Source of the DNA: Isoperla grammatica
Lineage: Eukaryota; Arthropoda; Insecta; Plecoptera; Perlodidae
Assembly: GCA_945910005.1 (NCBI GenBank)
Contig: OX246743.1
Coordinates: 7,112,897 to 7,176,896, forward strand
DNA length: 64,000 bases
Reading direction: 5' to 3'
Part shown: piece by piece, positions 2,698-50,970 of the stretch
Position numbering within the stretch: position 1 is the stretch's first letter
Layout: every line of letters starts with the position of its first letter
Notes under the pieces: model-generated
Database searches by the model: none
What the model saw: the letters and a program-made list of their open reading frames with translations, nothing else
What the model was told of the DNA's origin: nothing
Program-made: the position numbers and the translations under genes

Positions 2698-9729
<7,032 letters not shown>

Positions 9730-16469: not shown

Positions 16470-16696
16470 ATGTCTTGGCTACAGAATTTAACATCTGGAT
16501 TCGTGCTCAGAAATCTTCTTACTCCAGAGGCAAATCCTTTGAAAGTTATCGAGGTTAAGACAGAAAATTTCAGTGACCGAATAATCCACTGTCGTGAAGA
16601 TGCTATTGTACTCTATGGGCCTAGCCCTTCAAATAAAGAAAAGTATGAAATTATTTTGCACAGGCCATTCACAGAAACAATACATCAGGCTTATAG
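16470..16696 (+). CDS. PLA2G6: PLA2G6 exon 1
   Basis: Starts [17 protein letters not shown]; ends phase 2 before GTAAGT. AT-rich codon use. Confidence 0.88.
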
Positions 16697-25600: not shown

Positions 25601-27491
25601 TGATGTCGTCTGACATTTTTATTGCAGTCTGTTTTCAATATTGTTGTTCTACCTCGTATTCGCTCCGATCGATGGTTCAGCAGTGCACACAATACATTTA
25701 GTACCTCCAACTGACATAACTAGCTTTGTAACTTGTTGAGAAATATGTAACTGTTAGCTCACTCGAGTTCAACATATGACTAACACAAAAATTAAAATGA
25801 AATGCATGGCTGAACAAGTGACGAACGACTGTGTTTTGTATCTAAGCTGATATGATAAGGCACATGTACTAGATATGAGTAGCATTATGTATGAATACAG
25901 AAAATAGCCTGAAGTGAAAGTGTGTTAGCATATTTGGACTGAAAATTTTAAACTCAGAAAATTTTAAATACCTAATATAATATGTAAAACATTTCCAGTT
26001 CTATACATTGTATTGGCTTCTCATGACAAAGATCTGGTTCCAATTATTGAAGCTGCAAATCTGCTAACAACATCTCATTTAGAAATGTTTTATCATCCTA
26101 AACATGTTACTTTTTCTGCTAATCAACAATATTCTTCAATTTTTAGCCTTGACATTGAGTTTAATGATGTTTTATGGTTCAGATCTATTGTAGTTTAATA
26201 GCGGCCATGACATAATTGAGTCTTGTCTTTGCAAGAGTGACACGTCAAATATGCAGCGGAGTAGCATTGCTCACCAATGATTTTGAGCTCGGGAGAAGGG
26301 CATAATAATAGCAACAACAGAAATAAAAATCATGAAAATAACAAAAAATTAAAGAAACAAAGAAATACAGCACTCATTATTTTTATCATGTACATATTTG
26401 TTATTTGTACATGATTGATATTTCATAGACATTAATTTTACATTTCAAGAACTCTTTTAAGTTTTATTACAAAAAAAAACTTATACGTATGCTCAATTCA
26501 ATAAATCTACAACTCTATACTTTTGCTGAGAGTGTATAATTAAAATAAATGTTATTTAAATGTCAATAGATACATTAACTGTTAATAATGGTTTGTTTAA
26601 TGGGCAATGGGAGGAAATAAAAATTTGCATCTGGTTCCACTATAGAAAACATGCGATTATAAGAAGTAAAACAAACTACATTACGTATAACACAAAGTAA
26701 ATGGATAAATTAATTAAGTACCACAACATTATTTTTATTTTTATTTAGTTTTAGCTTTTATTTAGTGCAGTTAAAAGATAAAGGTCGACATTTTGATTAG
26801 ATAGAACAAGTGCTCATGCGTTGGCCTTACCTAACAGTAAACCACAAACATAGTTTTTTTTTTAACTTTGCAACTTGATTTTAATCTATCAATGGGATAC
26901 TGGTGTACTTTATTTATTTATTTATTTATTTCTTTAATGTCTATCCTATTCAGTTATAAAAACTGATTTACAAAGGAGGACCTTTTTTTTTTTTTAGAGT
27001 TTAGAGCCGTCATAGCAACGAAGCACATAATAAATGGTATAAATGTTCCCCACTGAAAATCAGTTCTTGTAACTGAATTGTTTAGACTATTAAATACAAA
27101 TGTATCTGTTAATTTTTTTTTCCTACATTTTATGTATTAAATTAAAAATGTAATGGAACGTTTTGCCCGCCAGGACATGAAGTTCGGCGGCACCCCCCTC
27201 CACTGGTCGTGTTCCCGTGAGGTGATCGAGACGCTGGTCGACATGGGCTGCGACATCAACTCTCTCAACTTCAACGGCCGCACCGCCCTCCACATCATGG
27301 TGTTGCGTAATCGCCTGGCCTGCGTGGTCGCCCTGCTCAGTCGCCAGGCCAAGGTGAACCTGGGCGACAGCGATGGCGATACCCCCCTGCATCTCGCCGT
27401 CAAACAGGGCAACGCTGCCGTCGTGCAGGTACGTTCATTGCACCACTCAGGGAATTATTATCATTATATATTATTATTATTATTATTATTA

Positions 27492-27535
<44 letters not shown>

Positions 27536-30500
27536 ATAGGCCTAGTTCAAGATGGGCAGGGATCGACTACGATGTATGTATGTATGTATGTATGTATGTA
27601 TGTATTGTATGTATTTATTAGCCTTCGTACAATTCACTTATGCATCCACACACTGTTGTGATGAACAAGTATTATGGACACATGAGAAGAATGGAGAAAC
27701 ATAGAATCCCAAGGCAAGCCTTTGAGTTAGTGAATAAGCAAAGAAGAGTGGAAAGACCTAGTAATAGAAGGCAGGACCAGGTACAAGTAGATGTGGAAGA
27801 GAGAGGAGAGGAGTGGCCAGTGGTAGAGGATAGAGAAAGATGGTGGGAGTACAGAAAAAGGTAGAGAGGCAGAGAGTTGGTGGAACGGCAAAAGAAATTC
27901 ATTCGCGAAGAGAATGAAGTTTAAGAAAATGATGTGTCGAGCTTGGCATGCCGATACTGATTCCTGGGATGCCCAAGATCAAGGGTGGAAACACCCCTTT
28001 ATCCAACTAAATGATGGAATAAAGAGTAGCGATATACATATTATATTTATAGTAAAAAACAGTTATTGCAGGAAAAGTGGTCGGAGAAGAGAACTTGTGG
28101 AAGAAGATATTGAAGTAGAGATGTCAGAGGAGCAAGTGCTAGAGCAAGACAAAGAAGAAAGAGGGGAAGCGTCAGGCATGGCATAGGTAGACCCGAGGCC
28201 CCAAGTGAATGGTGAAAATCTCCCACCCCCTACCCGACTTCATAGTTGGAAACGGGGAGAGATGTGGATTGATATAAAATAAAAATTAATTAGTAGGCCT
28301 AAAGGTTACTGACAAATTACAGGACAACTTAAGATTATGGATTTAAAAATGATTACTATTATTTATAGTTGTTCTACTATTAAAATCAAGATTCCAATTC
28401 CGATAATATAGTGTAATAGGGATAAGACTAGGCTGCAACAACTTCTGGAGGGCAGAATAAGAGAATTTCATTTTCAGCTCCGTGTCAGATTTTCAAATTC
28501 CTTCGTCCCAGTGGTTGGTTAATACACATTGCTTGCCCCCAGGCGCTGATAGTGTTTGGCACGGACCTGGCGTGCATCAACAATGCTGGCGCCTCCCCCC
28601 GCCACGTAGTACCAGCTGACCCCGCCGGCGATAAGATCCTCTACCTCCTGCACGCCGCAGTGGTTAATACACATTGCTTGCCCCCAGGCGCTGATAGTGT
28701 TTGGCGCGGACCTGGCGTGCATCAACAATGCTGGCGCCTCCCCCCGCCACATAGTACCGACTGACCCCGCCGGCGATAAGATCCTCTACCTCCTGCACGC
28801 CGCAGTGGTTAATACACATTGCTTGCCCCCAGGCGCTGATAGTGTTTGGCGCGGACCTGGCGTGCATCAACAATGCTGGCGCCTCCCCCCGCCACGTAGT
28901 ACCAGCTGACCCCGCCGGCGATAAGATCCTCTACCTCCTGCACGCCGCAGTGGTTAATACACATTGCTTGCCCCCAGGCGCTTATAGTGTTTGGCGCGGA
29001 CCTGGCGTGCATCAACAATGCTGGCGCCTCCCCCCGCCACGTAGTACCAGCTGACCCCGCCGGCGATAAGATCCTCTACCTCCTGCACGCCGCAGTGGTT
29101 AATACACATTGCTTGCCCCCAGGCGCTGATAGTGTTTGGCGCGGACCTGGCGTGCATCAACAATGCTGGCGCCTCCCCCCGCCACGTAGTACCAGCTGAC
29201 CCCGCCGGCGATAAGATACTCTACCTCCTGCACGCCGCAGTGGTTAATACACATTGCTTGCCCCCAGGCGCTGATAGTGTTTGGCGCGGACCTGGCGTGC
29301 ATCAACAATGCTGGCGCCTCCCCCCGCCACGTAGTACCAGCTGACCCCGCCGGCGATAAGATCCTCTACCTCCTGCACGCCGCAGTGGTTAATACACATT
29401 GCTTGCCCCCAGGCGCTGATAGTGTTTGGCGCGGACCTGGCGTGCATCAACAATGCTGGCGCCTCCCCCCGCCACGTAGTACCAGCTGACCCCGCCGGCG
29501 ATAAGATCCTCTACCTCCTGCACGCCGCAGTGGTTAATACACATTGCTTGCCCCCAGGCGCCGATAGTGTTTGGCGCGGACCTGGCGTGCATCAACAATG
29601 CTGGGCCTCCCCCCGCCACATAGTACCAGCTGACCCCGCCGGCGATAAGATCCTCTACCTGCTGCACGCCGCAGTGGTTAATACACAATGCTTGCCCCCA
29701 GGCGCTGATAGTGTTTGGCGCGGACCTGGCGTGCATCAACAATGCTGGCGCCTCCCCCCGCCACGTAGTACCAGCTGACCCCGCCGGCGATAAGATCCTC
29801 TACCTGCTGCACGCCGCAGTGGTTAATACACAATGCTTGCCCCCAGGCGCTGATAGTGTTTGGCGCGGACCTGGCGTGCATCAACAATGCTGGCGCCTCC
29901 CCCCGCCACGTAGTACCAGCTGACCCCGCCGGCGATAAGATCCTCTACCTGCTGCACGCCGCAGTGGTTAATACACATTGCTTGCCCCCAGGCGCTGATA
30001 GTGTTTGGCGCGGACCTGGCGTGCATCAACAATGCTGGCGCCTCCCCCCGCCACGTAGTACCGACTGACCCCGCCGGCGATAAGATCCTCTACCTCCTGC
30101 ACGCCGCAGTGGTTAATACACATTGCTTGCCCCCAGGCGCTGATAGTGTTTGGCGCGGACCTGGCGTGCATCAACAATGCTGGCACCTCCCCCCGCCACG
30201 TAGTACCAGCTGACCCCGCCGGCGATAAGATCCTCTACCTGCTGCACGCCGCAGTGGTTAATACACATTGCTTGCCCCCAGGCGCTGATAGTGTTTGGCG
30301 CGGACCTGGCGTGCATCAACAATGCTGGCACCTCCCCCCGCCACGTAGTACCAGCTGACCCCGCCGGCGATAAGATCCTCTACCTGCTGCACGCCGCAGT
30401 GGTTAATACACATTGCTTGCCCCCAGGCGCTGATAGTGTTTGGCGCGGACCTGGCGTGCATCAACAATGCTGGCGCCTCCCCCCGCCACGTAGTACCAGC

Positions 30501-33500
30501 TGACCCCGCCGGCGATAAGATCCTCTACCTCCTGCACGCCGCAGTGGTTAATACACATTGCTTGCCCCCAGGCGCCGATAGTGTTTGGCGCGGACCTGGC
30601 GTGCATCAACAATGCTGGCGCCTCCCCCCGCCACGTAGTACCAGCTGACCCCGCCGGCGATAAGATCCTCTACCTGCTGCACGCCGCAGTGGTTAATACA
30701 CATTGCTTGCCCCCAGGCGCTGATAGTGTTTGGCGCGGACCTGGCGTGCATCAACAATGCTGGCGCCTCCCCCCGCCACGTAGTACCAGCTGACCCCGCC
30801 GGCGATAAGATCCTCTACCTGCTCCACGCCGCAGTGGTTAATACACATTGCTTGCCCCCAGGCGCTGATAGTGTTTGGCGCGGACCTGGCGTGCATCAAC
30901 AATGCTGGCGCCTCCCCCCGCCACGTAGTACCAGCTGACCCCGCCGGCGATAAGATCCTCTACCTGCTGCACGCCGCAGTGGTTAATACACATTGCTTGC
31001 CCCCAGGCGCCGATAGTGTTTGGCGCGGACCTGGCGTGCATCAACAATGCTGGCGCCTCCCCCCGCCACGTAGTACCAGCTGACCCCGCCGGCGATAAGA
31101 TCCTCTACCTGCTGCACGCCGCAGTGGTTAATACACATTGCTTGCCCCCAGGCGCTGATAGTGTTTGGCGCGGACCTGGCGTGCATCAACAATGCTGGCG
31201 CCTCCCCCCGCCACGTAGTGCCAGCTGACCCCGCCGGCGATAAGATCCTCTACCTGCTGCACGCCGCAGTGGTTAATACACATTGCTTGCCCCCAGGCGC
31301 TGATAGTGTTTGGCGCGGACCTGGCGTGCATCAACAATGCTGGCGCCTCCCCCCGCCACGTAGTACCAGCTGACCCCGCCGGCGATAAGATCCTCTACCT
31401 GCTGCACGCCGCAGTGGTTAATACACATTGCTTGCCCCCAGGCGCTGATAGTGTTTGGCGCGGACCTGGCGTGCATCAACAATGCTGGCGCCTCCCCCCG
31501 CCACGTAGTGCCAGCTGACCCCGCCGGCGATAAGATCCTCTACCTGCTCCACGCCGCAGTGGTTAATACACATTGCTTGCCCCCAGGCGCTGATAGTGTT
31601 TGGCGCGGACCTGGCGTGCATCAACAATGCTGGCGCCTCCCCCCGCCACGTAGTACCAGCTGACCCCGCCGGCGATAAGATCCTCTACCTCCTGCACGCC
31701 GCAGTGGTTAATACACATTGCTTGCCCCCAGGCGCTGATAGTGTTTGGCGCGGACCTGGCGTGCATCAACAATGCTGGCGCCTCCCCCCGCCACGTAGTA
31801 CCAGCTGACCCCGCCGGCGATAAGATCCTCTACCTCCTGCACGCCGCAGTGGTTAATACACATTGCTTGCCCCCAGGCGCTGATAGTGTTTGGCGCGGAC
31901 CTGGCGTGCATCAACAATGCTGGCGCCTCCCCCCGCCACGTAGTACCAGCTGACCCCGCCGGCGATAAGATCCTCTACCTCCTGCACGCCGCAGTGGTTA
32001 ATACACATTGCTTGCCCCCAGGCGCTGATAGTGTTTGGCGCGGACCTGGCGTGCATCAACAATGCTGGCGCCTCCCCCCGCCACGTAGTACCAGCTGACC
32101 CCGCCGGCGATAAGATCCTCTACCTCCTGCACGCCGCAGTGGTTAATACACATTGCTTGCCCCCAGGCGCTGATAGTGTTTGGCGCGGACCTGGCGTGCA
32201 TCAACAATGCTGGCGCCTCCCCCCGCCACGTAGTACCAGCTGACCCCGCCGGCGATAAGATCCTCTACCTGCTGCACGCCGCAGTGGTTAATACACATTG
32301 CTTGCCCCCAGGCGCTGATAGTGTTTGGCGCGGACCTGGCGTGCATCAACAATGCTGGCGCCTCCCCCCGCCACGTAGTACCAGCTGACCCCGCCGGCGA
32401 TAAGATACTCTACCTGCTGCACGCCGCAGTGGTTAATACACATTGCTTGCCCCCAGGCGCTGATAGTGTTTGGCGCGGACCTGGCGTGCATCAACAATGC
32501 TGGCGCCTCCCCCCGCCACGTAGTACCAGCTGACCCCGCCGGCGATAAGATCCTCTACCTCCTGCACGCCGCAGTGGTTAATACACATTGCTTGCCCCCA
32601 GGCGCTGATAGTGTTTGGCGCGGACCTGGCGTGCATCAACAATGCTGGCGCCTCCCCCCGCCACATAGTACCAGCTGACCCCGCCGGCGATAAGATCCTC
32701 TACCTGCTGCACGCCGCAGTGGTTAATACACATTGCTTGCCCCCAGGCGCTGATAGTGTTTGGCGCGGACCTGGCGTGCATCAACAATGCTGGCGCCTCC
32801 CCCCGCCACGTAGTACCAGCTGACCCCGCCGGCGATAAGATCCTCTACCTCCTGCACGCCGCAGTGGTTAATACACATTGCTTGCCCCCAGGCGCTGATA
32901 GTGTTTGGCGCGGACCTGGCGTGCATCAACAATGCTGGCGCCTCCCCCCGCCACGTAGTACCAGCTGACCCCGCCGGCGATAAGATCCTCTACCTGCTGC
33001 ACGCCGCAGTGGTTAATACACATTGCTTGCCCCCAGGCGCTGATAGTGTTTGGCGCGGACCTGGCGTGCATCAACAATGCTGGCGCCTCCCCCCGCCACG
33101 TAGTACCAGCTGACCCCGCCGGCGATAAGATCCTCTACCTCCTGCACGCCGCAGTGGTTAATACACATTGCTTGCCCCCAGGCGCTGATAGTGTTTGGCG
33201 CGGACCTGGCGTGCATCAACAATGCTGGCGCCTCCCCCCGCCACGTAGTACCAGCTGACCCCGCCTGCGATAAGATCCTCTACCTCCTGCACGCCGCAGT
33301 GGTTAATACACATTGCTTGCCCCCAGGCGCTGATAGTGTTTGGCGCGGACCTGGCGTGCATCAACAATGCTGGCGCCTCCCCCCGCCACGTAGTACCAGC
33401 TGACCCCGCCGGCGATAAGATCCTCTACCTGCTCCACGCCGCAGTGGTTAATACACATTGCTTGCCCCCAGGCGCTGATAGTGTTTGGCGCGGACCTGGC

Positions 33501-36500
33501 GTGCATCAACAATGCTGGCGCCTCCCCCCGCCACGTAGTACCAGCTGACCCCGCCGGCGATAAGATCCTCTACCTGCTGCACGCCGCAGTGGTTAATACA
33601 CATTGCTTGCCCCCAGGCGCTGATAGTGTTTGGCGCGGACCTGGCGTGCATCAACAATGCTGGCGCCTCCCCCCGCCACGTAGTACCAGCTGACCCCGCC
33701 GGCGATAAGATCCTCTACCTGCTCCACGCCGCAGTGGTTAATACACATTGCTTGCCCCCAGGCGCTGATAGTGTTTGGCGCGGACCTGGCGTGCATCAAC
33801 AATGCTGGCGCCTCCCCCCGCCACGTAGTACCAGCTGACCCCGCCGGGGATAAGATCCTCTACCTCCTGCACGCCGCAGTGGTTAATACACATTGCTTGC
33901 CCCCAGGCGCTGATAGTGTTTGGCGCGGACCTGGCGTGCATCAACAATGCTGGCGCCTCCCCCCGCCACGTAGTACCAGCTGACCCCGCCGGCGATAAGA
34001 TCCTCTACCTCCTGCACGCCGCAGTGGTTAATACACATTGCTTGCCCCCAGGCGCTGATAGTGTTTGGCGCGGACCTGGCGTGCATCAACAATGCTGGCG
34101 CCTCCCCCCGCCACATAGTACCAGCTGACCCCGCCGGCGATAAGATCCTCTACCTCCTGCACGCCGCAGTGGTTAATACACATTGCTTGCCCCCAGGCGC
34201 TGATAGTGTTTGGCGCGGACCTGGCGTGCATCAACAATGCTGGCGCCTCCCCCCGCCACGTAGTACCAGCTGACCCCGCCGGCGATAAGATCCTCTACCT
34301 CCTGCACGCCGCAGTGGTTAATACACATTGCTTGCCCCCAGGCGCTTATAGTGTTTGGCGCGGACCTGGCGTGCATCAACAATGCTGGCGCCTCCCCCCG
34401 CCACGTAGTACCAGCTGACCCCGCCGGCGATAAGATCCTCTACCTGCTGCACGCCGCAGTGGTTAATACACATTGCTTGCCCCCAGGCGCTGATAGTGTT
34501 TGGCGCGGACCTGGCGTGCATCAACAATGCTGGCGCCTCCCCCCGCCACGTAGTACCAGCTGACCCCGCCGGCGATAAGATCCTCTACCTCCTGCACGCC
34601 GCAGTGGTTAATACACATTGCTTGCCCCCAGGCGCTGATAGTGTTACGCGCGGACCTGGCGTGCATCAACAATGCTGGCGCCTCCCCCCGCCACGTAGTA
34701 CCAGCTGACCCCGCCGGCGATAAGATCCTCTACCTGCTGCACGCCGCAGTGGTTAATACACATTGCTTGCCCCCAGGCGCTGATAGTGTTTGGCGCGGAC
34801 CTGGCGTGCATCAACAATGCTGGCGCCTCCCCCCGCCACGTAGTACCAGCTGACCCCGCCGGCGATAAGATCCTCTACCTGCTGCACGCCGCAGTGGTTA
34901 ATACACATTGCTTGCCCCCAGGCGCTGATAGTGTTTGGCGCGGACCTGGCGTGCATCAACAATGCTGGCGCCTCCCCCCGCCACGTAGTACCAGCTGACC
35001 CCGCCGGCGATAAGATACTCTACCTCCTGCACGCCGCAGTGGTTAATACACATTGCTTGCCCCCAGGCGCTGATAGTGTTTGGCGCGGACCTGGCGTGCA
35101 TCAACAATGCTGGCGCCTCCCCCCGCCACGTAGTACCAGCTGACCCCGCCGGCGATAAGATCCTCTACCTGCTGCACGCCGCAGTGGTTAATACACATTG
35201 CTTGCCCCCAGGCGCTGATAGTGTTTGGCGCGGACCTGGCGTGCATCAACAATGCTGGCGCCTCCCCCCGCCACGTAGTACCAGCTGACCCCGCCGGCGA
35301 TAAGATCCTCTACCTCCTCCACGCCGCAGTGGTTAATACACATTGCTTGCCCCCAGGCGCTGATAGTGTTTGGCGCGGACCTGGCGTGCATCAACAATGC
35401 TGGCGCCTCCCCCCGCCACGTAGTACCAGCTGACCCCGCCGGCGATAAGATCCTCTACCTCCTCCACGCCGCAGTGGTTAATACACATTGCTTGCCCCCA
35501 GGCGCTGATAGTGTTTGGCGCGGACCTGGCGTGCATCAACAATGCTGGCGCCTCCCCCCGCCACGTAGTACCAGCTGACCCCGCCGGCGATAAGATCCTC
35601 TACCTGCTGCACGCCGCAGTGGTTAATACACATTGCTTGCCCCCAGGCGCTGATAGTGTTTGGCGCGGACCTGGCGTGCATCAACAATGCTGGCGCCTCC
35701 CCCCGCCACGTAGTACCAGCTGACCCCGCCGGCGATAAGATACTCTACCTCCTGCACGCCGCAGTGGTTAATACACATTGCTTGCCCCCAGGCGCTGATA
35801 GTGTTTGGCGCGGACCTGGCGTGCATCAACAATGCTGGCGCCTCCCCCCGCCACGTAGTACCAGCTGACCCCGCCGGCGATAAGATCCTCTACCTGCTGC
35901 ACGCCGCAGTGGTTAATACACATTGCTTGCCCCCAGGCGCTGATAGTGTTTGGCGCGGACCTGGCGTGCATCAACAATGCTGGCGCCTCCCCCCGCCACG
36001 TAGTACCAGCTGACCCCGCCGGCGATAAGATCCTCTACCTCCTGCACGCCGCAGTGGTTAATACACATTGCTTGCCCCCAGGCGCTGATAGTGTTTGGCG
36101 CGGACCTGGCGTGCATCAACAATGCTGGCGCCTCCCCCCGCCACGTAGTACCAGCTGACCCCGCCGGCGATAAGATCCTCTACCTGCTGCACGCCGCAGT
36201 GGTTAATACACATTGCTTGCCCCCAGGCGCTGATAGTGTTTGGCGCGGACCTGGCGTGCATCAACAATGCTGGCGCCTCCCCCCGCCACGTAGTACCAGC
36301 TGACCCCGCCGGCGATAAGATCCTCTACCTGCTGCACGCCGCAGTGGTTAATACACATTGCTTGCCCCCAGGCGCTGATAGTGTTTGGCGCGGACCTGGC
36401 GTGCATCAACAATGCTGGCGCCTCCCCCCGCCACGTAGTACCAGCTGACCCCGCCGGCGATAAGATCCTCTACCTGCTGCACGCCGCAGTGGTTAATACA

Positions 36501-39322
36501 CATTGCTTGCCCCCAGGCGCTGATAGTGTTTGGCGCGGACCTGGCGTGCATCAACAATGCTGGCGCCTCCCCCCGCCACGTAGTACCAGCTGACCCCGCC
36601 GGCGATAAGATCCTCTACCTGCTGCACGCCGCAGTGGTTAATACACATTGCTTGCCCCCAGGCGCTGATAGTGTTTGGCGCGGACCTGGCGTGCATCAAC
36701 AATGCTGGCGCCTCCCCCCGCCACGTAGTACCAGCTGACCCCGCCGGCGATAAGATCCTCTACCTCCTGCACGCCGCAGTGGTTAATACACATTGCTTGC
36801 CCCCAGGCGCTGATAGTGTTTGGCGCGGACCTGGCGTGCATCAACAATGCTGGCGCCTCCCCCCGCCACGTAGTACCAGCTGACCCCGCCGGCGATAAGA
36901 TCCTCTACCTGCTGCACGCCGCAGTGGTTAATACACATTGCTTGCCCCCAGGCGCTGATAGTGTTTGGCGCGGACCTGGCGTGCATCAACAATGCTGGCG
37001 CCTCCCCCCGCCACGTAGTACCAGCTGACCCCGCCGGCGATAAGATCCTCTACCTCCTGCACGCCGCAGTGGTTAATACACATTGCTTGCCCCCAGGCGC
37101 TGATAGTGTTTGGCGCGGACCTGGCGTGCATCAACAATGCTGGCGCCTCCCCCCGCCACGTAGTACCAGCTGACCCCGCCGGCGATAAGATCCTCTACCT
37201 GCTGCACGCCGCAGTGGTTAATACACATTGCTTGCCCCCAGGCGCTGATAGTGTTTGGCACGGACCTGGCGTGCATCAACAATGCTGGCGCCTCCCCCCG
37301 CCACATAGTACCAGCTGACCCCGCCGGCGATAAGATCCTCTACCTGCTGCACGCCGCAGTGGTTAATACACATTGCTTGCCCCCAGGCGCTGATAGTGTT
37401 TGGCGCGGACCTGGCGTGCATCAACAATGCTGGCGCCTCCCCCCGCCACGTAGTACCAGCTGACCCCGCCGGGGATAAGATCCTCTACCTCCTCTACGCC
37501 GCAGTGGTTAATACACATTGCTTGCCCCCAGGCGCTGATAGTGTTTGGCGCGGACCTGGCGTGCATCAACAATGCTGGCGCCTCCCCCCGCCACGTAGTA
37601 CCAGCTGACCCCGCCGGCGATAAGATCCTCTACCTGCTGCACGCCGCAGTGGTTAATACACATTGCTTGCCCCCAGGCGCTGATAGTGTTTGGCGCGGAC
37701 CTGGCGTGCATCAACAATGCTGGCGCCTCCCCCCGCCACGTAGTACCAGCTGACCCCGCCGGCGATAAGATCCTCTACCTCCTGCACGCCGCAGTGGTTA
37801 ATACACATTGCTTGCCCCCAGGCGCTGATAGTGTTTGGCGCGGACCTGGCGTGCATCAACAATGCTGGCGCCTCCCCCCGCCACATAGTACCAGCTGACC
37901 CCGCCGGCGATAAGATCCTCTACCTCCTGCACGCCGCAGTGGTTAATACACATTGCTTGCCCCCAGGCGCTGATAGTGTTTGGCGCGGACCTGGCGTGCA
38001 TCAACAATGCTGGCGCCTCCCCCCGCCACGTAGTACCAGCTGACCCCGCCGGGGATAAGATCCTCTACCTCCTGCACGCCGCAGTGGTTAATACACATTG
38101 CTTGCCCCCAGGCGCTGATAGTGTTTGGCGCGGACCTGGCGTGCATCAACAATGCTGGCGCCTCCCCCCGCCACGTAGTACCAGCTGACCCCGCCGGGGA
38201 TAAGATCCTCTACCTCCTCCACGCCGTAGGGGCCCCAAGATGCTCCTCCGACATGCTGGAGTGCACCAGGGGATGTCAGAACAAGGACGAAGGTTGGTCC
38301 AGGCACTGTCTTAAATTACCGGTATTATCTATTAGTTTTTGTTAAATGACGTACTCGACAATTATGATCGTACGACATCGGGGGATGTTCTGAGGAAAGA
38401 GACAAGTAGGTGGTACAGGGAGAGGGGGGGTATGGATTGCCTTCCATCTGGCTTCTCCCCCTCGACATGTCGGGCTAGGGTAGCCCTACCAGAAGCATAC
38501 GCTTCCGCCCGCATAGCTCTCGGGATCAACATAGCACACAAACCTGCGCACCGTGTTTTTGGGCAGGCACTGCCTTTGAAGCTTCATTCACTGAACACAA
38601 CACCTAGATTTTAATGTATCTGTTTTAGGGGTTTTTTTTTTTTTTTTTTTTTTAAGAGTTAACAATTTCCAAATGATTTATTGAAAGCCAGAGAACATAT
38701 ACATATTATACAGTATATGTGTACTATTGTGAATGGTACAACTATTTCTACTATGTATTACTACACTAACATTTCATTATTAGCCTATATTATTGAACAT
38801 ATTAAAATGCAGGTATACATAGGAGTGGAGGATTGTAATGAATTTAAAATGCCTATTCACATAGGTACTCTTTAATAGAATTGAAGCTTTTCTTTGTTCG
38901 GAAAGGAAGAATTTCAGATTGTGTTTGAACAATAGCAGGGAGGGAGGGATTTTTATGTTGTTAGGAAGTTTATTGTAATGTATAGAATGGAGGATTATCA
39001 CTTGAGTCAACTTTGATGTAGATCTGTTATGAATTTTGTTAGCTAAAAAGCAACATTTTTTATACTCCACTATCCACTATTTGAAGCACCTTTTGTGGAT
39101 GGGTTTAAAGAGTGGCAGCCCTATGTGTGTATTTATCATGTGTCTGTTCACCAGGCTTCAACGGGGTACCCCCTCCAGACCCCCCGTCTGCAGAGTCACG
39201 CGAGATCTTGGACCAGATGCTGTTGGTAGCGGGGATGAATGTGGCGGCCACTTCGGGAGAGAGGACTAAGACTAAGGGTGGGCGCGTGCTCTGCCTGGAT
39301 GGAGGAGGTATGTCTACCGTAT

Positions 39323-39505: not shown

Positions 39506-42500
39506 TTGATGTTATAAAATGATACCTATTTTGTTTTCTTTTTTTGCTCAGGTATTCGAGGGCTGGTGTTGGTAGGCATGTTGCTCGAACTGGAATCTGT
39601 GGTCGGCCGACCGGTCATCCACTGCTTCGACTGGGTTGCTGGGACGAGCACTGGAGGCATACTGGCACTCACGCTGGCGTCGGGTCAGTACCATCATCTC
39701 ATCAACGGTGGCCTATTTACTTGTGCTGTGATGTTATGCCTATCTTATTCAGCTGCAAAAAAAACTACTTTACTCGATCACTCTGAAAAAACACTGAAGC
39801 AAACAGGCGATGTTCGACTATAGTACTTTTGTCACTAAAAGTTAATTTTCACCGCTAGATCGCAGCCGCAGCAGCATGCATGTATTTTAGATACCGGTAG
39901 GCTTTTTAGCTTATAAGAATCACAACAATCAAAATAAAGAGTGAAAAATTAAAAATTAGATTCTAAGTTTTATGGGTTGTGGGAAAGTCTTCAACAATAA
40001 TAACAATATTTTAAGACCAAAGAAAATTATTTCATTTTTGGGATGTTTTTGAGCAATTATCCAGAAATAGAGAAGTTTTTAATGATGCAGCAAAAGGGTT
40101 GAGGGATTTGGGTTTGCATCCTATAAAACTTGTAAGAGCATTGATTTTGTAACTTTTATCCAAGACAAGTCAAAGGCAATTTTACATTTTCCAAGATGTT
40201 TAGGATTATATGCTAATCAAAATATTGATACATAATGTTTTTCTTCAGGTAAAACCCTTAAAGAGTGCCTGTGCCTGTACTTCCGGATGAAGGAGTACGC
40301 GTTCGTTGGCGGGCGGCCGTATCCCAGCGAACCACTGGAAGGCATCTTAAAGGACGCGCTGGGGACCGACACTGTCATGGCGGACATCAGAAGTCCTAAG
40401 TTAGTAGCACTGTCTTACCGTGTGTGTGTACTGTACAACTTCATACTTAGACCTGGGTAGTAGACCTGAGAGATTCCGCTGCTGCTCCCCTCCATTGCTA
40501 TGTGACCACCCCTTACCCTTGTGACAACCCGACAATCATATCATATTTATTCATTTCATATTAGCCTGTATTATTTATAATCAGTTGTACTTGTTATGCT
40601 GGATAGTGATCACATAACTAAGGGGTGGAGCATCAAACTGTCTCAAACTTAACTAAAAATATCGGCACTCTTAACATAAAATATTTGCATATTTTTTAGT
40701 TAGGAATAGGGATGTCAACGATTACGATTAAATCGATTCGATTAATCGATTATTAATTGAAAACGATTAATCGATTATTAAAAAAAAAAAAACGATTTTA
40801 AATTTTCGCGCTTTTTTAAATTTAGTTCTCAAGATCTGCCGCCTATTCGAGCGCGAGCGCTAGCGCTAGCATCGCTATTGCTCAGTTTCATTTACAGTAG
40901 GCCTAGGCCTAGGCCTAAAAACAGCAACAGCATAACTTTGCGTCATAATTTGAGCCGAATTTCCAGTCAATTTTGAATAGCTGTGTCTAGTCGCCTACCC
41001 TAGACCCAGCATTCGACGCCTAGGATCTATAAAAATAAGAGTTGTTATGTTTGTTCACAAATAACAAGAGAAGTAAGGTTAGAAAAGTCGCTACGATTTT
41101 TAGTTCACATCACGTAAATTTTAATTATGCTGCACATGAAAATAATAATATTACGACGCATATTCAGCATACTTAATTACTTATTGGTTAAAAAAAAACG
41201 GGAAGTGAATAACTATAGCCCTTCAGGCCTAGCTAGGACCGAAATTATCGTCGAAATCTTGGACAGAACATAACAAAAATACTCCGTGACGTAAAATATA
41301 TCGATAGTCGAAAAGAAGTCGAATTGCGAACTCGTGGCTTGCGCGGGCAATTCAAACTAACCGAAACCAGACCGAAGTTTGGAAGAAACTTGCTACTATA
41401 CCGACATTTAACAAAACGATTAAAATCGATTAATAATCGATTATGGAGGTGAAAGTGAATTCGATTATCGATTATAATAATTTAATCGTTTGACATCCCT
41501 AGTTAGGAATGTGTGGCCAAACTGGTGTTGAAAAACTGTAAGGACAAAAATCTTTTCATTTTCGTACTCACTTTTAAAACAACAAGGCCCTAGATAAGTA
41601 ATATTAGTTTAATTAAAAAAAAAATAAGTATTGATTGACTGATTGTAGACCTATTCCATGTTCTGAACTAAAAAATCTCGCCAAATTTATCAATACATAC
41701 TCTGTCCGCTCGTCATCACAGCTGTCTGTGTGTTCCCAGGATAATCATCACGGGCGTGCTGGCCGACCGCAAGCCCGTCGACCTCCATCTGTTCCGCAAC
41801 TACGAGTCTCCCAAGGAGCTGCTTGGCGTACCGTCTAGCGGCATGTTCAAGCCCCCCCTCCCCCCCGCCGAGACGCTGCTATGGCGCGCTGCCAGGGCAT
41901 CAGGGGCCGCGCCCTCCTACTTTAGGTAACAACTAACAACACACTCTCGTCCCGGGTAAATGTGAAAACGTGCGGAAAATCGCCCATTTTTTGCTAAGGT
42001 TTGCCATTTCTTTTTTCTTTAAAGCACTCATTTTTTCAATCGCATTTTATTTTTCATCATAACGCTGCATGAAAAGCAGTACTGGTAAATTAAAAAGTGC
42101 TTTAAATAACACCCCCCACCAAAAATCTGTGTTTGTAACCAAGTGGGTAGATACTAGATAAATAATCAATCAGAATCACACATTTATTTCATTTTTGATG
42201 ATATTTATGTATATTTTTTTATTGTTTCATTTATTTGTTTGTTTGTTTATTTATCTATTTATTTAGATATTTATTTAATTATATAATTTTTTATTTATTT
42301 AGTTACTTATGGAGAGTAGCCTCCAAATTTATAATTAATTCAACTGTCCATTCTTACAATCTCTAAAACCTGTTTCTCCTAGAGTGAATGAGTGAACAAA
42401 CCAAAACTCAACCTGACACAATAACATTCATTTAATCTTATTGAATCCTACGTCAACCAACCTGTTTGCAGGGCGTTTGGGCGCTTCCTCGACGGTGGAC

Positions 42501-45500
42501 TGGTGGCCAATAATCCGACACTAGACGCGCTGACTGAGATACATGAGTATAACCTGGCCCTGCAAGCCATGGGGAGGATTGCCGAGGTCTGTCCTCCTAG
42601 GGTGGTGGTTTCTCTTGGCACTGGCCTCGTCCCTCTCACACAGGTAAGACACAACCTAGACACCTGTCAGGTCAGTATAACCTGGCCCTGCAAGCCATGG
42701 GGAGGATTGCCGAGGTCTGTCCTCCTAGGGTGGTGGTTTCTCTTGGCACTGGCCTCGTCCCTCTCACACAGGTAAGACACAACCTCTACATCTGTCAGGG
42801 CAGTATAACCTGGCTCTGCAAGCCATGGGGAGGATTGCCGAGGTCTGTCCTCCTAGAGTGGTGGTTTCTCTTGGCACTGGCCTCGTCCCTCTCACACAGG
42901 TAAGACACAACCTCTACATCTGTCAGGGCAGTATAACCTGGCCCTGCAAGCCATGGGGAGGATTGCCGAGGTCTGTCCTCCTAGGGTGGTGGTTTCTCTT
43001 GGCACGGGCCTCGTCCCTCTCACACAGGTAAGACACAACCTCTACATCTGTCAGGGCAGTATAACCTGGCCCTGCAAGCCATGGGGAGGATTGCCGAGGT
43101 CTGTCCTCCTAGGGTGGTGGTTTCTCTTGGCACTGGCCTCGTCCCTCTCACACAGGTAAGACACAACCTCTACATCTGTCAGGGCAGTATAACCTGGCCC
43201 TGCAAGCCATGGGGAGGATTGCCGAGGTCTGTCCTCCTAGGGTGGTGGTTTCTCTTGGCACGGGCCTCGTCCCTCTCACACAGGTAAGACACAACCTCTA
43301 CATCTGTCAGGGCAGTATAACCTGGCCCTGCAAGCCATGGGGAGGATTGCCGAGGTCTGTCCTCCTAGGGTGGTGGTTTCTCTTAGCACTGGCCTCGTCC
43401 CTCTCACACAGGTAAGACACAACCTCTACATCTGTCAGGGCAGTATAACCTGGCTCTGCAAGCCATGGGGAGGATTGCCGAGGTCTGTCCTCCTAGGGTG
43501 GTGGTTTCTCTTGGCACGGGCCTCGTCCCTCTCACACAGGTAAGACACAACCTAGACACCTGTCAGGTCAGTATAACCTGGCCCTGCAAGCCATGGGGAG
43601 GATTGCCGAGGTCTGTCCTCCTAGAGTGGTAGTTTCTCTTGGCACTGGCCTTGTCCCTCTCACACAGGTAAGACACAACCTCGACATCTGTCAGGTCAGT
43701 ATAACCTGGCCCTGCAAGCCATGGGGAGGATTGCCGAGGTCTGTCCTCCTAGGGTGGTGGTTTCTCTTGGCACTGGCCTTGTCCCTCTCACACAGGTAAG
43801 ACACAACCTAGACACCTGTCAGGTCAGTATAACCTGGCCCTGCAAGCCATGGGGAGGATTGCCGAGGTCTGTCCTCCTAGGGTGGTGGTTTCTCTTGGCA
43901 CTGGCCTCGTCCCTCTCACACAGGTAAGACACAACCTCTACATAGCTGTCAGGGCAGTATAACCTGGCCCTGCAAGCCATGGGGAGGATTGCCGAGGTCT
44001 GTCCTCCTAGGGTGGTGGTTTCTCTTGGCACTGGCCTTGTCCCTCTCACACAGGTAAGACACAACCTCTACATCTGTCAGGGCAGTATAACCTGGCCCTG
44101 CAAGCCATGGGGAGGATTGCCGAGGTCTGTCCTCCTAGGGTGGTGGTTTCTCTTGGCACGGGCCTCGTCCCTCTCACACAGGTAAGACACAACCTAGACA
44201 CCTGTCAGGTCAGTATAACCTGGCCCTGCAAGCCATGGGGAGGATTGCCGAGGTCTGTCCTCCTAGGGTGGTGGTTTCTCTTGGCACTGGCCTCGTCCCT
44301 CTCACACAGGTAAGACACAACCTCTACATCTGTCAGGGCAGTATAACCTGGCCCTGCAAGCCATGGGGAGGATTGCCGAGGTCTGTCCTCCTAGGGTGGT
44401 GGTTTCTCTTGGCACTGGCCTCGTCCCTCTCACACAGGTAAGACACAACCTCTACATCTGTCAGGGCAGTATAACCAGGCCCTGCAAGCCATGGGGAGGA
44501 TTGCCGAGGTCTGTCCTCCTAGGGTGGTGGTTTCTCTTGGCACGGGCCTCGTCCCTCTCACACAGGTAAGACACAACCTAGACACCTGTCAGGTCAGTAT
44601 AACCTGGCCCTGCAAGCCATGGGGAGGATTGCCGAGGTCTGTCCTCCTAGAGTGGTGGTTTCTCTTGGCACTGGCCTCGTCCCTCTCACACAGGTAAGAC
44701 ACAACCTCTACATCTGTCAGGGCAGTATAACCTGGCCCTGCAAGCCATGGGGAGGATTGCCGAGGTCTGTCCTCCTAGGGTGGTGGTTTCTCTTGGCACG
44801 GGCCTCGTCCCTCTCACACAGGTAAGACACCTGTCAGGTCAGTATAACCTGGCCCTGCAAGCCATGGGGAGGATTCAGTTCCATTATTTCTTGTCTTAGG
44901 AATAAGTAAACGGTGACTTTGGAGCCGTCCTAGCAACGAAGCACTCAATAAATTCAAAGTTGTTCTGAATCGGCCTTGTTGATTCTGACATTTGTCCGCG
45001 GGTGTTCGCACTGTCCAATCACTGATTCGTATGTTTCGTATTTGAAATATCGATCTTTGATTGGTTATCGCTCACTCGCCGATGGTGTTTGGAGCCTACA
45101 GGGTTGGTTTAGTCGCTTTAAATTAAAGTCCCCCACTGCAAATCAGTTTAGTTACTGAGTGGGTAGACTCTAAATGTGAATTTATTTATTTTATTTATTT
45201 ATTGCCGAGGTCTGTTCTCCTAGGGTGGTGGTTTCTCTTGGCACTGGCCTCGTCCCTCTCACACAGGTAAGACACAACCTAGACACCTGTCAGGTCAGTA
45301 TAACCTGGCTCTGCAAGCCATGGGGAGGATTGCCGAGGTCTGTTCTCCTAGGGTGGTGGTTTCTCTTGGCACTGGCCTCGTCCCTCTCACACAGGTAAGA
45401 CACAACCTAGACACCTGTTAGGTCAGTGCTTCTCACGAGTATATAAGCTGGCCCTGCAAGCCATAGAATGGATGAGACACTTCAAGGTGTAGAAAACAAC

Positions 45501-46310
45501 CATTTTGCTAATTAATTCTAATTTCGATGTTACGATTAGAAATAAACGTGGGGAATTTCGGTGATTTTGAGGTGCGAATCGACTGTTTACATCGTCTTTC
45601 ATTATCAGCGCTTTTCGCGGCCCGTGAAAAACAAACATCTCATTGTGATCAGTCATCATCTCTTGCCACGTCCAACTCTGCGTTGGGTCGGCATTGAAGA
45701 TAAGTCTCTCCATCTTGTTCTATCCTGCCACCACTCTTCCTCCTCAACTACATTCCAGTCCCCTCCTCACATTTCCACATCCTTCCTCTCTTTTGTCGTG
45801 CCATCTTTGTCGTGGTCTTCCTCTCGTTCTTCTACCTGAAATCTCCAGTTCTAGCATTCTCCTCGGCAATCTTTCCACCCTCTTGACATGTCCGAACCAT
45901 TTCAGTCTTCTCTCTCCAATACGCTCCAATAAATCTAATCTAAAAAAAAATGGGAATCTTCTTAACGCTCGTTTGGTTTCCGTGTTGTCCAGCTGAAGGC
46001 CATCGACGTGTTCCGCCCGGAGAGCATCTGGGACACGGCCCGCCTCTACATGGGCGTGACGGCGTTGGGAACGCTCCTTGTTGACCAGGCGACGGCGAGC
46101 GACGGTCGTGTGGTGGACCGAGCGCGGGCGTGGTGCTCCATGATAGGCGTGCCGTACTATCGCTTCTCACCGCAGATGTCCGAGGACATAGTCATGGACG
46201 AGAAGAGCGACGAGAAGCTCGTCAACATGCTGTGGGAGGCCAAGTCGTACATGCACTCCAACACCGTTCAGCTCACCGAACTGGCCATGTTTTTGAACGA
46301 CGACTGTTGA
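16470..46310 (+). CDS. PLA2G6: Calcium-independent phospholipase A2 (iPLA2-beta / iPLA2-VIA), complete
   Basis: Hydrolyses phospholipid sn-2 ester bonds without calcium; acts in membrane remodelling and mitochondrial lipid maintenance. Twelve exons join in frame to 812 aa, close to the 806 aa human long form: 16470-16696, 17079-17294, 18114-18288, 19370-19642, 27174-27428, 38112-38292, 39155-39307, 39552-39683, 40249-40399, 41740-41925, 42472-42643, 45993-46310. The N-terminal third aligns with the family; ankyrin repeats span about residues 150-430 ([50 protein letters not shown]). The patatin domain has the glycine-rich LCLDGGGIRGL (about 488-498), the lipase motif GTSTG with nucleophile Ser about 526, and the DGG motif with catalytic Asp about 657. 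Exons 6 and 11 are partly amplified in tandem arrays. Exons 1-3 are AT-rich, later exons GC-rich. Confidence 0.96.
17079..17294 (+). CDS. PLA2G6: PLA2G6 exon 2
   Basis: Acceptor TATTTCAG; encodes [18 protein letters not shown] and [15 protein letters not shown], matching the family's HPSWSVAHLA segment. Donor GTAGGC, phase 2. Confidence 0.92.
18114..18288 (+). CDS. PLA2G6: PLA2G6 exon 3 (first ankyrin repeats)
   Basis: Acceptor TTTTTCCACAG; encodes [20 protein letters not shown] and [16 protein letters not shown]. Donor GTAACT, phase 0. Confidence 0.9.
19129..19350. mobile_element. Foldback MITE 19 bp upstream of the PLA2G6 exon 4 acceptor
   Basis: About 80-bp inverted arms (TATACTCCGCCC ... 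GGGCGGAGTATA) around a short loop, possibly flanked by TA. A pyrimidine-rich stretch (TTTTCTCCCACCCCC, about 19104-19118) lies on its far side; between its end and the exon there is only an A/G-rich 19 nt ending AAAGAG. Confidence 0.85.
19370..19642 (+). CDS. PLA2G6: PLA2G6 exon 4 (ankyrin repeats)
   Basis: Acceptor AAAGAG, without an adjacent pyrimidine tract, because a foldback element lies directly upstream. Encodes [20 protein letters not shown] and [10 protein letters not shown] extended it through [17 protein letters not shown] to GTGGGT because this joins in phase 0 to [11 protein letters not shown], as in the family. A possible earlier donor (GTCAGC at 19541) also keeps phase 0 and would drop 34 codons. 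Confidence 0.88.
19665..19986. mobile_element. hAT-type MITE in PLA2G6 intron 4
   Basis: Termini TAGGGATGGG and CCATCCCTA with 8-bp flanks GTTACGAC (19657-19664) and GTTATGAC (19987-19994), one mismatch apart, as expected for a hAT target duplication. The interior is rich in GTTTAAACG-type repeats. Starts 22 bp after exon 4. Confidence 0.8.
20018..20364. mobile_element. MITE with a second foldback nested inside
   Basis: Outer ends TTTGACGCTC and GAGCTTCAAA; body motifs CTCCCCTCCATTG and GTGACAACCCGACAATCATA recur at 40480-40645. A separate foldback (20176-20293, GGAAAGAGTGATAGG with its inverse) sits within. Confidence 0.65.
20176..20293. mobile_element. Nested small foldback element
   Basis: Arms of about 45 bp beginning GGAAAGAGTGATAGGAAC and ending in its inverse; loop of about 25 bp. 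Interrupts the element at 20018-20364. Confidence 0.7.
20365..22780. other. PLA2G6 intron 4, no gene seen
   Basis: AT-rich. Short ORFs on both strands have no recognisable domain. AGGCCTA motifs are frequent, as elsewhere in the window. Confidence 0.4.
22785..23649. mobile_element. Composite foldback, outer element with TTAA flanks
   Basis: GCGGTCCGAAACTGTC (22788) is inverted at 23630-23644, with TTAA on both outer sides (22781-22784 and 23650-23653), suggestive of piggyBac-type target choice. It surrounds a second, larger-armed foldback. Confidence 0.5.
22972..23612. mobile_element. 641-bp foldback with ~175-bp arms
   Basis: Arms 22972-23146 and 23437-23612 are near-identical inverted repeats (starting CATTGAGTTTGTTAGTG). 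The interior is unique and non-coding. Confidence 0.85.
23817..24180. mobile_element. Foldback element interrupted by a Harbinger-type MITE
   Basis: Outer arms start AGTTGAGAAACTGTAAAAA and end in the inverse; they share CTTATCCCCACCACTGC and TACCCGACCCCCC. The right arm is split by the element at 23996-24143. Confidence 0.8.
23996..24143. mobile_element. 148-bp PIF/Harbinger-type MITE
   Basis: Termini GGGCGCTTTCATAGC and its exact inverse, flanked on both sides by TAA (23993-23995, 24144-24146). A 3-bp TWA duplication with GG-starting TIRs is typical of PIF/Harbinger. Removing it and one TAA restores the host arm. Confidence 0.8.
25155..25616 (-). CDS. Four-transmembrane protein, snakeskin/MARVEL-like, nested antisense
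   Basis: Intronless ORF of 153 aa inside PLA2G6 intron 4, opposite strand. Hydrophobic segments lie at about residues 13-33, 47-68, 74-95 and 126-149, with short hydrophilic ends (MSDDIRDL ... LTYLTNK) and a Ser/Glu-rich stretch before the last segment. The topology, length (~150-160 aa) and last helix pattern ([19 protein letters not shown]) resemble insect snakeskin, a smooth septate junction protein, and MARVEL-type proteins. This is inference from pattern, not a confirmed orthologue. An AATAAA on the minus strand lies at 24970-24975, about 180 nt past the stop. It could be an independent gene or a retrocopy; the frame is intact. Confidence 0.7.
   Translation of the reverse strand: MSDDIRDLFTNTGFIAKIVELILCSVNTYFVTAANYSGSPYGTSTLSVISAPAHIVITGVLLIAHVIGHPNNLYELTFLSIAAMLNIANGTLCSIGYSDYRNLLTGDYGSDFGKRPLSENSSESPELLIVAIISLIAGIVFAVDAILTYLTNK
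25617..27173. other. Rest of PLA2G6 intron 4
   Basis: AT-rich. Contains short ATTT tracts (about 26908-26930) and a diverged SINE tail (26993-27100: AGCCGTCATAGCAACGAAGC, CCCCACTGAAAATCAG), which ends about 70 bp before exon 5. No gene seen. Confidence 0.45.
27174..27428 (+). CDS. PLA2G6: PLA2G6 exon 5 (ankyrin repeats)
   Basis: Acceptor CGCCAG; encodes [40 protein letters not shown] and [19 protein letters not shown]. Donor GTACGT, phase 0. Very GC-rich. Confidence 0.95.
27451..27606. repeat. (TTA)n and (GTAT)n microsatellites
   Basis: A TTA/ATT tract follows exon 5 by about 25 bp (to ~27537); a GTAT tract lies at about 27572-27606. Confidence 0.9.
27640..28045 (+). mobile_element. LINE 3'-end remnant
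   Basis: Encodes [17 protein letters not shown] and a Glu/Arg-rich tail resembling the post-RT C-terminus of non-LTR retrotransposons (the H-x-R-R-M motif). It ends in the sequence also seen at 5228-5305. Frame broken; no RT motif in the window. Confidence 0.5.
28515..38228 (+). repeat. 145-bp tandem array, 67 copies, of PLA2G6 exon 6 acceptor plus 117 nt
   Basis: The exon-like part starts at 28543 and recurs every 145 bp (one unit, starting near 29568, lacks 1 bp) up to 38112, where it continues into the real exon 6. Each unit is 28 nt that starts GT (GTGGTT), contains TTGCTTGCCCCC and ends AG, followed by 117 nt (39 codons, [20 protein letters not shown] onward to LLHAA). GC-rich compared with flanks. 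Copies differ by a few substitutions; some rare variants recur in distant units. Opposite-strand and shifted ORFs of ~70 codons throughout are shadows. Confidence 0.98.
38112..38292 (+). CDS. PLA2G6: PLA2G6 exon 6 (last ankyrin repeat and linker; final unit of array)
   Basis: Only the last of 67 acceptors (CTTGCCCCCAG) opens into sequence that continues past LLHAV as [20 protein letters not shown] and ends at GTTGGT in phase 1, joining [11 protein letters not shown] of exon 7. ALIVFGAD matches the family's ALIVFGAE segment. Confidence 0.92.
38293..39154. other. PLA2G6 intron 6
   Basis: Contains a T homopolymer at about 38632-38653 and no recognisable gene; ORF at 38339-38614 shows no known domain. 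Confidence 0.4.
39155..39307 (+). CDS. PLA2G6: PLA2G6 exon 7 (linker and start of patatin domain)
   Basis: Encodes [17 protein letters not shown] and GRVLCLDGG; the glycine-rich motif is split across the intron. Donor GTATGT, phase 1. Confidence 0.94.
39320..39507. repeat. (ATTT)n microsatellite filling PLA2G6 intron 7
   Basis: 188 bp of ATTT with one ATTC interruption, starting 12 bp after the exon 7 donor. It makes up most of the 244-bp intron. Confidence 0.98.
39552..39683 (+). CDS. PLA2G6: PLA2G6 exon 8 (lipase motif GTSTG)
   Basis: Acceptor TTGCTCAG; encodes [19 protein letters not shown] and [19 protein letters not shown] with the catalytic serine. Donor GTCAGT, phase 1. Confidence 0.96.
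40249..40399 (+). CDS. PLA2G6: PLA2G6 exon 9
   Basis: Acceptor TTCTTCAG; encodes [19 protein letters not shown] and [19 protein letters not shown]. Donor GTTAGT, phase 2. Confidence 0.95.
40480..40645. mobile_element. MITE related to 20018-20364
   Basis: Shares GCTGCTCCCCTCCATTG, GTGACAACCCGACAATCATA and an inverted 3' end (GATCACATAACTAAGGGGTG) with the intron 4 copy, without the nested insertion. Confidence 0.65.
40707..41501. mobile_element. 795-bp hAT-type element in PLA2G6 intron 9
   Basis: Termini TAGGGATGTCAA and TTGACATCCCTA-like end, with perfect 8-bp flanking duplication GTTAGGAA (40699-40706 and 41502-41509). Subterminal CGATTAATCGATT repeats on both sides. No transposase ORF, so non-autonomous. 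Confidence 0.85.
41740..41925 (+). CDS. PLA2G6: PLA2G6 exon 10
   Basis: Acceptor TTCCCAG; encodes [20 protein letters not shown] and [14 protein letters not shown]. Donor GTAACA, phase 2. Confidence 0.96.
42472..42643 (+). CDS. PLA2G6: PLA2G6 exon 11 (catalytic Asp; first unit of the 128-bp array)
   Basis: Acceptor TTTGCAG; encodes [35 protein letters not shown] and [14 protein letters not shown]. Donor GTAAGA, phase 0. Its last 96 nt are the source of the downstream array. Confidence 0.95.
42548..45427 (+). repeat. 128-bp tandem array, 20 copies, of PLA2G6 exon 11 end plus donor
   Basis: Units start at 42548 and every 128 bp (130 bp for the unit starting 43828; the spacer before 44843 is shortened to 21 nt), to 45299. 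Each is 96 nt (32 codons, [15 protein letters not shown] to LVPLTQ) followed by a 32-nt spacer that starts GTAAGACACA and ends TCAG or GCAG. The nineteenth unit is split by a SINE (44876-45203). A decayed remnant follows near 45440-45463. Confidence 0.97.
44876..45203 (+). mobile_element. SINE inserted in the 128-bp array
   Basis: Body of the family seen at 59735-60137 (GGTGACTTTGGAGCCGTCC, AGTCCCCCACTGCAAATCAG, ATTTATT tail), lacking the tRNA-like head, so 5'-truncated. The array unit resumes directly after it, with at most a 3-bp ATT duplication. Confidence 0.85.
45744..45929 (-). mobile_element. LINE reverse-transcriptase tail remnant, antisense
   Basis: Encodes [20 protein letters not shown] and [15 protein letters not shown], the typical C-terminal tail after the RT domain of non-LTR retrotransposons. 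Lies in PLA2G6 intron 11, opposite strand. Confidence 0.75.
45993..46310 (+). CDS. PLA2G6: PLA2G6 exon 12 (C-terminus)
   Basis: Acceptor TTGTCCAG, phase 0; encodes [40 protein letters not shown] and LNDDC followed by [11 protein letters not shown] is invariant in the family. Confidence 0.96.
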
Positions 46311-50645: not shown

Positions 50646-50970
50646 ATGTATGTTGGTTTTTGTTTTGAGGTTGAGTTGTACCTAACGTACATTCGGCTAT
50701 GATTTTGCAGGCAAATAAAGTTTATAATTGTTAATGAGGAAAGTTGGTGTAAAATTATTACTAAACCCATCACTCAAGTCTCCCACATCCCCCCACTATT
50801 ACTGTCTTTGCATTGAGATGGACGATACCAGTCGCACTCACAGCTAATCCGAATGGAATGTTTTTTGTTCAATCAATTATATTGTTGTGTTTTTCACGGG
50901 AAAAAAAAACAAAAAAAGCTCCAAAGCCAAATAATCAATGTTGAAAATCAACACTGACATCGATTAATCG

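Follow-up and report, generated by a model that had tools for sequence, protein, structure and literature searches.

A 64,000-nucleotide stretch of the genome of the plecopteran insect Isoperla grammatica (assembly GCA_945910005.1, contig OX246743.1, positions 7,112,897 to 7,176,896 of the forward strand; hereafter the window) contains a tandem array of 67 copies of a 145 bp sequence spanning the acceptor edge of exon 6 in a PLA2G6-like calcium-independent phospholipase gene. This array, referred to here as array B, is in all probability a minisatellite of the mirage type, defined in two reports on amphioxus (PMC3087553, PMC3902484) by its straddling of an exon-intron boundary; the 66 extra copies would be intronic, with exon 5 spliced to the last acceptor at 38112, and the array is one of several at exon edges in this genome. 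The kind is already known, and what is new is its scale, in an insect. With its 67 acceptor copies, array B is the odd one out among the exon-edge arrays found in this genome. The initial annotation of the window described this one array, and does not mention a second in the same gene (array C), a third in a neighbouring gene (array A), and the fact that the class had already been described.

Anatomy of the array and its host gene

The central features are as follows, in window coordinates; a slash marks the exon-intron junction.

27174..27428, + strand, PLA2G6 exon 5, ending in phase 0 with donor CAG/GTACGT
28515..38226, + strand, array B, 67 tandem 145 bp copies of the 3′ end of intron 5 and the first ~115 nt of PLA2G6 exon 6
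28543..38111, + strand, 66 decoy copies of the 5′ part of exon 6, each preceded by the acceptor motif GCTTGCCCCCAG
38112..38292, + strand, authentic PLA2G6 exon 6, in which the last unit runs on into unique exon sequence; donor AAG/GTTGGT

The copy number reported in the initial annotation is confirmed in two ways. Tandem Repeats Finder (TRF) places the array at 28516-38226 with a period of 145, 67.0 copies and 98% matches, and the 12-nt acceptor motif lies ahead of every exonic part, identical in 67 of 67 copies (acceptors 28543 to 38112). Successive acceptors are 145 bp apart in 65 of 66 intervals and 144 bp in the other, owing to a 1-nt deletion in unit 8 (29558), the only unit of the 67 with a length change. 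There are 23 different sequences among the 65 full-length 145 bp units, the consensus form occurring 18 times.

Each unit had been divided into 117 nt, or 39 codons of the ankyrin end in phase 0 at both ends, and a 28-nt spacer starting GT and ending AG. The division is correct; in the gene model, phase 0 holds both at the end of exon 5 and at the start of exon 6, and reading through the spacer does shift the frame (145 mod 3 = 1) and then meets stops. However, the exon 6 match of the unit runs only up to ...CACGCCG, and the next CA is not exon 6: the last of the 39 codons is GCA in the other units as opposed to GTA (Val) in the true exon 6, and Val occupies this place in 17 of 17 aligned relatives. 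The unit is therefore really ~115 nt of exon and 30 nt of intron, and its 117 nt divide by three only because the duplication junction adds 2 nt of intron to them, though the 39-codon reading formally holds. The intron part begins CAGTGGTT, a sequence also found once upstream of the array. Likewise, the donor GCA/GTGGTT, which had been attributed to the junction, is new only in its exon-side GCA; GTGGTT is intron sequence, present once upstream at 28511-28516.

The host gene is on the + strand and appears intact. Its 12 exons, joined by script, give an open frame of 805 residues and a stop; all 11 donors are GT and all 11 acceptors are AG. At array B this frame takes the last acceptor, and at array C the first donor. 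The start of exon 4 was set to 19391 from the alignment of relatives; the PDB and protein searches were run with an earlier 815-residue model, with exon 4 from 19361 (where there is no AG), and matched 6aun in the PDB (1e-157) and Periplaneta americana PLA2G6 with 78% identity (query residues 200-780). The relatives aligned are 17 of the best 120 of 1688 protein matches; no identity in those 120 is above that of Periplaneta, so the species' own protein seems to be absent there. The exon 6 segment is single-copy in all 17 of these insect relatives, and in two of the 17, both Timema, the end of exon 11 is followed by an unrelated insertion. A search for a second haplotype copy with the unique exon 7 gave a single match in the assembly. 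A genome search with PF01734 (patatin) returned six matches, none in the PLA2G6-like gene of the window, and single-exon domain searches can therefore miss it.

Some further features of the gene were noted in passing. Its GC content is 0.38-0.44 in exons 1-3 and jumps to 0.56-0.66 in exons 4-12 (16470-19642); a palindromic element, by eye resembling a miniature inverted-repeat transposable element, lies directly 5′ of the exon 4 acceptor (19125-19360); and a single open frame on the - strand (25155-25634), with a weak sub-cut-off MARVEL match, is nested in intron 4.

Exon-edge arrays elsewhere in the window and genome

Two further arrays in the window cross predicted splice sites, both at donors.

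42472..42643, + strand, authentic PLA2G6 exon 11, for which the first donor of array C is used
42546..44875, + strand, array C, a 128 bp unit of the PLA2G6 exon 11 end and donor CAG/GTAAGA, with 18 donors before an inserted element
45205..45470, + strand, remainder of array C past the inserted element, with 2 further donors (45267 and 45395)
45993..46310, + strand, last PLA2G6 exon (exon 12), with the stop codon at its end
2815..3337, + strand, array A, nine copies of a 58 bp unit of 44 nt of a syntrophin-like exon end and 14 nt with donor AAG/GTAAAC

Array C has 20 donors in total, and the intact frame runs from the first. The element inserted in it (44876-45204) has a TTTA-type tail, and related-looking copies are seen by eye near 27000 and 59900. 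The exon of array A is presumed to be syntrophin-like, partly from its sequence; further downstream, and oriented alike, is a syntrophin C-terminal domain (1.2e-22), and with the exon's own 54-residue piece as query no syntrophin model matched, the only Pfam match (0.0038) being below cut-off. The probability that all three window arrays cross splice sites by chance is 0.0003 to 0.002, assuming 30 to 60 splice sites in a window that was chosen for array B.

A sample of loci, all from this genome, shows that such arrays recur. A PF00069 kinase search of the 874,298,753-base assembly gave 139 matches, from which 66 loci, mostly partial-domain, were picked by eye and scanned by TRF (period of at least 30), each with a flank on either side that was 700 bases long at 40 loci and 300 bases long at the other 26, 94,487 bases in all. 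Eight arrays were found, seven of which overlap the exon match; the eighth, at L030 (38 bp in 2.1 copies), does not. Tandem exon-edge copies are thus present in 7 of 66 loci (exact interval 4 to 21%), with ~1.8 to 10 copies, four or more of them in at least 3 of the 66, and all seven are at the donor edge:

L032, donor edge, 58 bp in 7.2 copies
L046 (GSK3-like), donor edge, 115 bp in 10 copies, extended with L061
L057, donor edge, 162 bp in 2.0 copies
L068, donor edge, 81 bp in at least 4.5 copies, to the end of the fetched stretch
L072, donor edge, 111 bp in 1.8 copies
L085, donor edge, 84 bp in 1.9 copies
L086, donor edge, 121 bp in at least 3.2 copies, to the end of the fetched stretch

The kinase names given to sampled loci (GSK3, CDKL) are presumed from sequence motifs. 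A 16 bp repeat in 4.4 copies that starts at a donor (L028) falls outside the count by the period cut. In 7 of the 8 sampled arrays a splice site falls within the first unit (P ~1e-5 for 7 or more under uniform placement, a null that takes no account of selection against arrays inside exons). Minisatellites are abundant in the surroundings in general: the 200 kb beside the window contain 29 arrays of period of at least 30, and 15 of these have a copy number of three or higher.

Several features emerge when arrays A, B and C and the seven kinase loci are taken together. First, nine of the ten are on the donor side and only array B is at an acceptor (two-sided P 0.02; 7:0 in the kinase sample alone, P 0.016). 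Second, the intron share of the unit ranges from 0.11 to 0.62 and is skewed to the exon (Kolmogorov-Smirnov 0.006, n = 10, with the array B value typed in). Third, the exonic parts of the nine donor arrays, measured from where TRF begins each array, have lengths of 44, 98, 47, 102, 99, 67, 68, 32 and 80, and only two of these are divisible by three. On the simplest account, exon edges, above all those with donors, are amplified again and again in this genome: duplications at GC-rich edges would arise often, and be kept when the splice site within the unit puts the surplus copies in the intron, such that the arrays seen are the survivors. Because splicing tends to use the first AG past a branch point, acceptor-side copies would be worse tolerated. 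It is possible, though doubtful, that the effect goes beyond mere tolerance, and that splice-donor regions in this insect lineage are mutational hot spots, where some process linked to transcription or splicing promotes tandem amplification. Were that so, thousands of exon-edge arrays would be expected, in continual exchange with functional exons, with array B a rare acceptor-side case.

Splice-site choice, unit turnover and alternative explanations

Splice sites were scored, the donors with a hand-entered weight matrix. The unit donor scores -0.7, a value that 45% of the 3,699 GTs on the + strand of the window equal or surpass, and lies below the 11 real donors of the PLA2G6-like gene (3.6 to 11.0); the initial annotation was right to call it weak, and it is near random strength. 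The unit acceptor scores 6.9, inside the range for this gene (3.9 to 14.6), and each unit contains a branch-point-like TTAATAC. Each unit could therefore plausibly serve as an acceptor, but lacks a good donor. For a new intron spliced between duplicated GT and AG sites, the array B donor is too weak; in array C the donors are strong, at 11.0, and the acceptors score 0.8 to 6.6.

From the sequence, it is most likely that the 66 extra copies of array B are spliced out whole with intron 5. The array would have begun with the tandem duplication of a segment from ~30 nt before the exon 6 acceptor to ~115 nt into the exon; it would then have grown to 67 units, with patchy exchange among them keeping it homogeneous. 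Exon definition would select the last acceptor, because only that copy continues into the rest of exon 6 and a real donor. The second of two readings in the initial annotation, that 66 acceptors are ignored and the last one is used, agrees with the unbroken gene model, with conservation of the protein and with the weakness of the unit donor, and to this extent probably stands.

Variation among the units is consistent with such exchange. Neighbouring units of array B are no more alike than shuffled ones (fraction 0.18), all four combinations occur at ten pairs of sites (in one pair the two are just 3 nt apart), and no higher-order repeats were seen in the array. The last unit has variants 87G and 108C in common with other units, so exchange seems to include the functional exon. 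Synonymous and non-synonymous variants number 7:9 in array B (P 0.16) and 5:3 in array C, neither significant, and 4:0 in array A (P 0.007); unit 8 of array B was omitted, and in array C the consensus was substituted for the truncated unit at 45267 and for three irregular spacers. Variants of arrays B and C in at least three units are 8 synonymous to 1 non-synonymous as opposed to 4:11 for rarer ones (Fisher 0.009, or 0.039 including array A, with a threshold chosen post hoc), a hint that exchange with the functional exon filters the common variants. The GSK3-like array, with 5 synonymous and 6 non-synonymous variants, each in one or two units, adds nothing to this pattern.

Three points weigh against the favoured explanation of array B. 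First, with an acceptor of ordinary strength and a branch-point-like sequence in every unit, some mis-splicing to decoys is expected. Second, the pooled variants of arrays A, B and C show a synonymous excess (16:12, P 0.002) that is readable as selection on coding units. Third, in a GT...AG parse the exonic part of array C is 96 nt and divisible by three, and two of the three window arrays (B and C) thus match the phase observation of the initial annotation.

Three other explanations were weighed. It is very improbable that the identical acceptors slow or tune the splicing of intron 5, and hence set the level of PLA2G6; 66 decoy acceptors are intact and the motif is the same in every copy, but homogenization suffices to explain this, and the spacer variants of array B (1 against 3.3 expected, unit 8 omitted) are not significantly few (P 0.13). 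Inflation of the copy number or mis-assembly of the array is very improbable: units ~98% identical over 10 kb make an exact copy number hard to assemble, but so many distinct unit sequences, the position of the array within a 48-Mb contig and the same anatomy at independent loci with ~2 to 10 copies all argue otherwise. Least probable is the reading that the initial annotation placed first, an in-frame repeat-protein cassette in which a varying number of units, with one or more skipped at each join, would lengthen the ankyrin region: the 39 codons in phase 0, feasible 173-nt introns, the single length change, the pooled synonymous excess and the 32 codons of array C speak for it, but the donor of the array B unit does not score as functional (by calculation rather than by assay), the spacer, at 28 nt, is short, the multiple of three in array B counts intron sequence and has no parallel as a rule across the ten arrays, 11 of the 15 rare variants in arrays B and C are non-synonymous, and extra units occur in 0 of the 17 aligned relatives.

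Relationship to known systems and neighbouring repeats

The mirages of amphioxus remain the closest parallel. In the two reports (PMC3087553, PMC3902484), they are described in the globin genes BflGb6 and BflGb9 and in Adh3, TnC and PGBD5; both exon edges can be hit, terminal units are outside homogenization, and regular splicing is undisturbed according to the authors. Several features here correspond: the unit includes an exon-intron boundary in arrays A, B and C and the seven kinase loci, the extra copies are on the intron side while the last unit of array B and the first of array C continue into an intact conserved exon, and array B evolves in concert (its 98% matches and the four-combination site pairs) with the last unit retaining its own GTA codon. 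The BflGb6 mirage is like array B in that the 3′ end of an intron and the 5′ part of exon 2 are repeated, in units of 150-160 bp, although as reported there its two haplotypes have 6 or 3 units, in a cephalochordate, as opposed to 67 in an insect. Here, moreover, the kinase-exon sample has such arrays at 7 of its 66 loci, each of them on the donor side.

Two other systems are related. In intron gain by tandem duplication (PMC4974935; the Rogers model), boundary-crossing duplication can likewise supply new splice sites; there it is a single duplication, whereas the arrays here are high-copy and any new intron in them would be putative. Human internal tandem repeats in segmental duplications (PMC2812944) are also located at exon-intron boundaries and may cause novel introns, but have shorter units (~30 bp in four copies on average), are in recent paralogues, and half are in coding sequence. 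Among the matches listed from the open-access literature (titles and the starts of abstracts), there is no insect case of an exon-edge minisatellite.

Should the rate seen in the kinase sample apply to other exons, tandem duplication at exon edges would be a common route of change in gene structure in an insect rather than a curiosity of amphioxus. Such arrays supply duplicated splice sites, raw material for the proposed intron gain, and bring functional exons within reach of exchange with dozens of decoy copies; array B would also be a natural test of acceptor choice, with 67 identical acceptors of which just one is beside an intact exon.

Several other repeats and frames lie nearby (window-based coordinates). 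A 102 bp satellite occupies 60148-64000 and leaves the window, continuing to 68014 with 77 copies in all; it contains no convincing exon (one sub-cut-off Pfam match). A 71 bp array ~92 kb past the end of the window seemed exon-like at first and is taken to be mobile-element sequence; of the frames in its flanks, one has a zinc-knuckle-like motif by eye and another has no Pfam match. A 276-aa frame at 50968-51798 has a weak sub-cut-off GIY-YIG match, and could derive from a Penelope-like element. Finally, one 49 bp satellite is present in two arrays, at 73907-78355 (91 copies) and 92957-103607 (217 copies).

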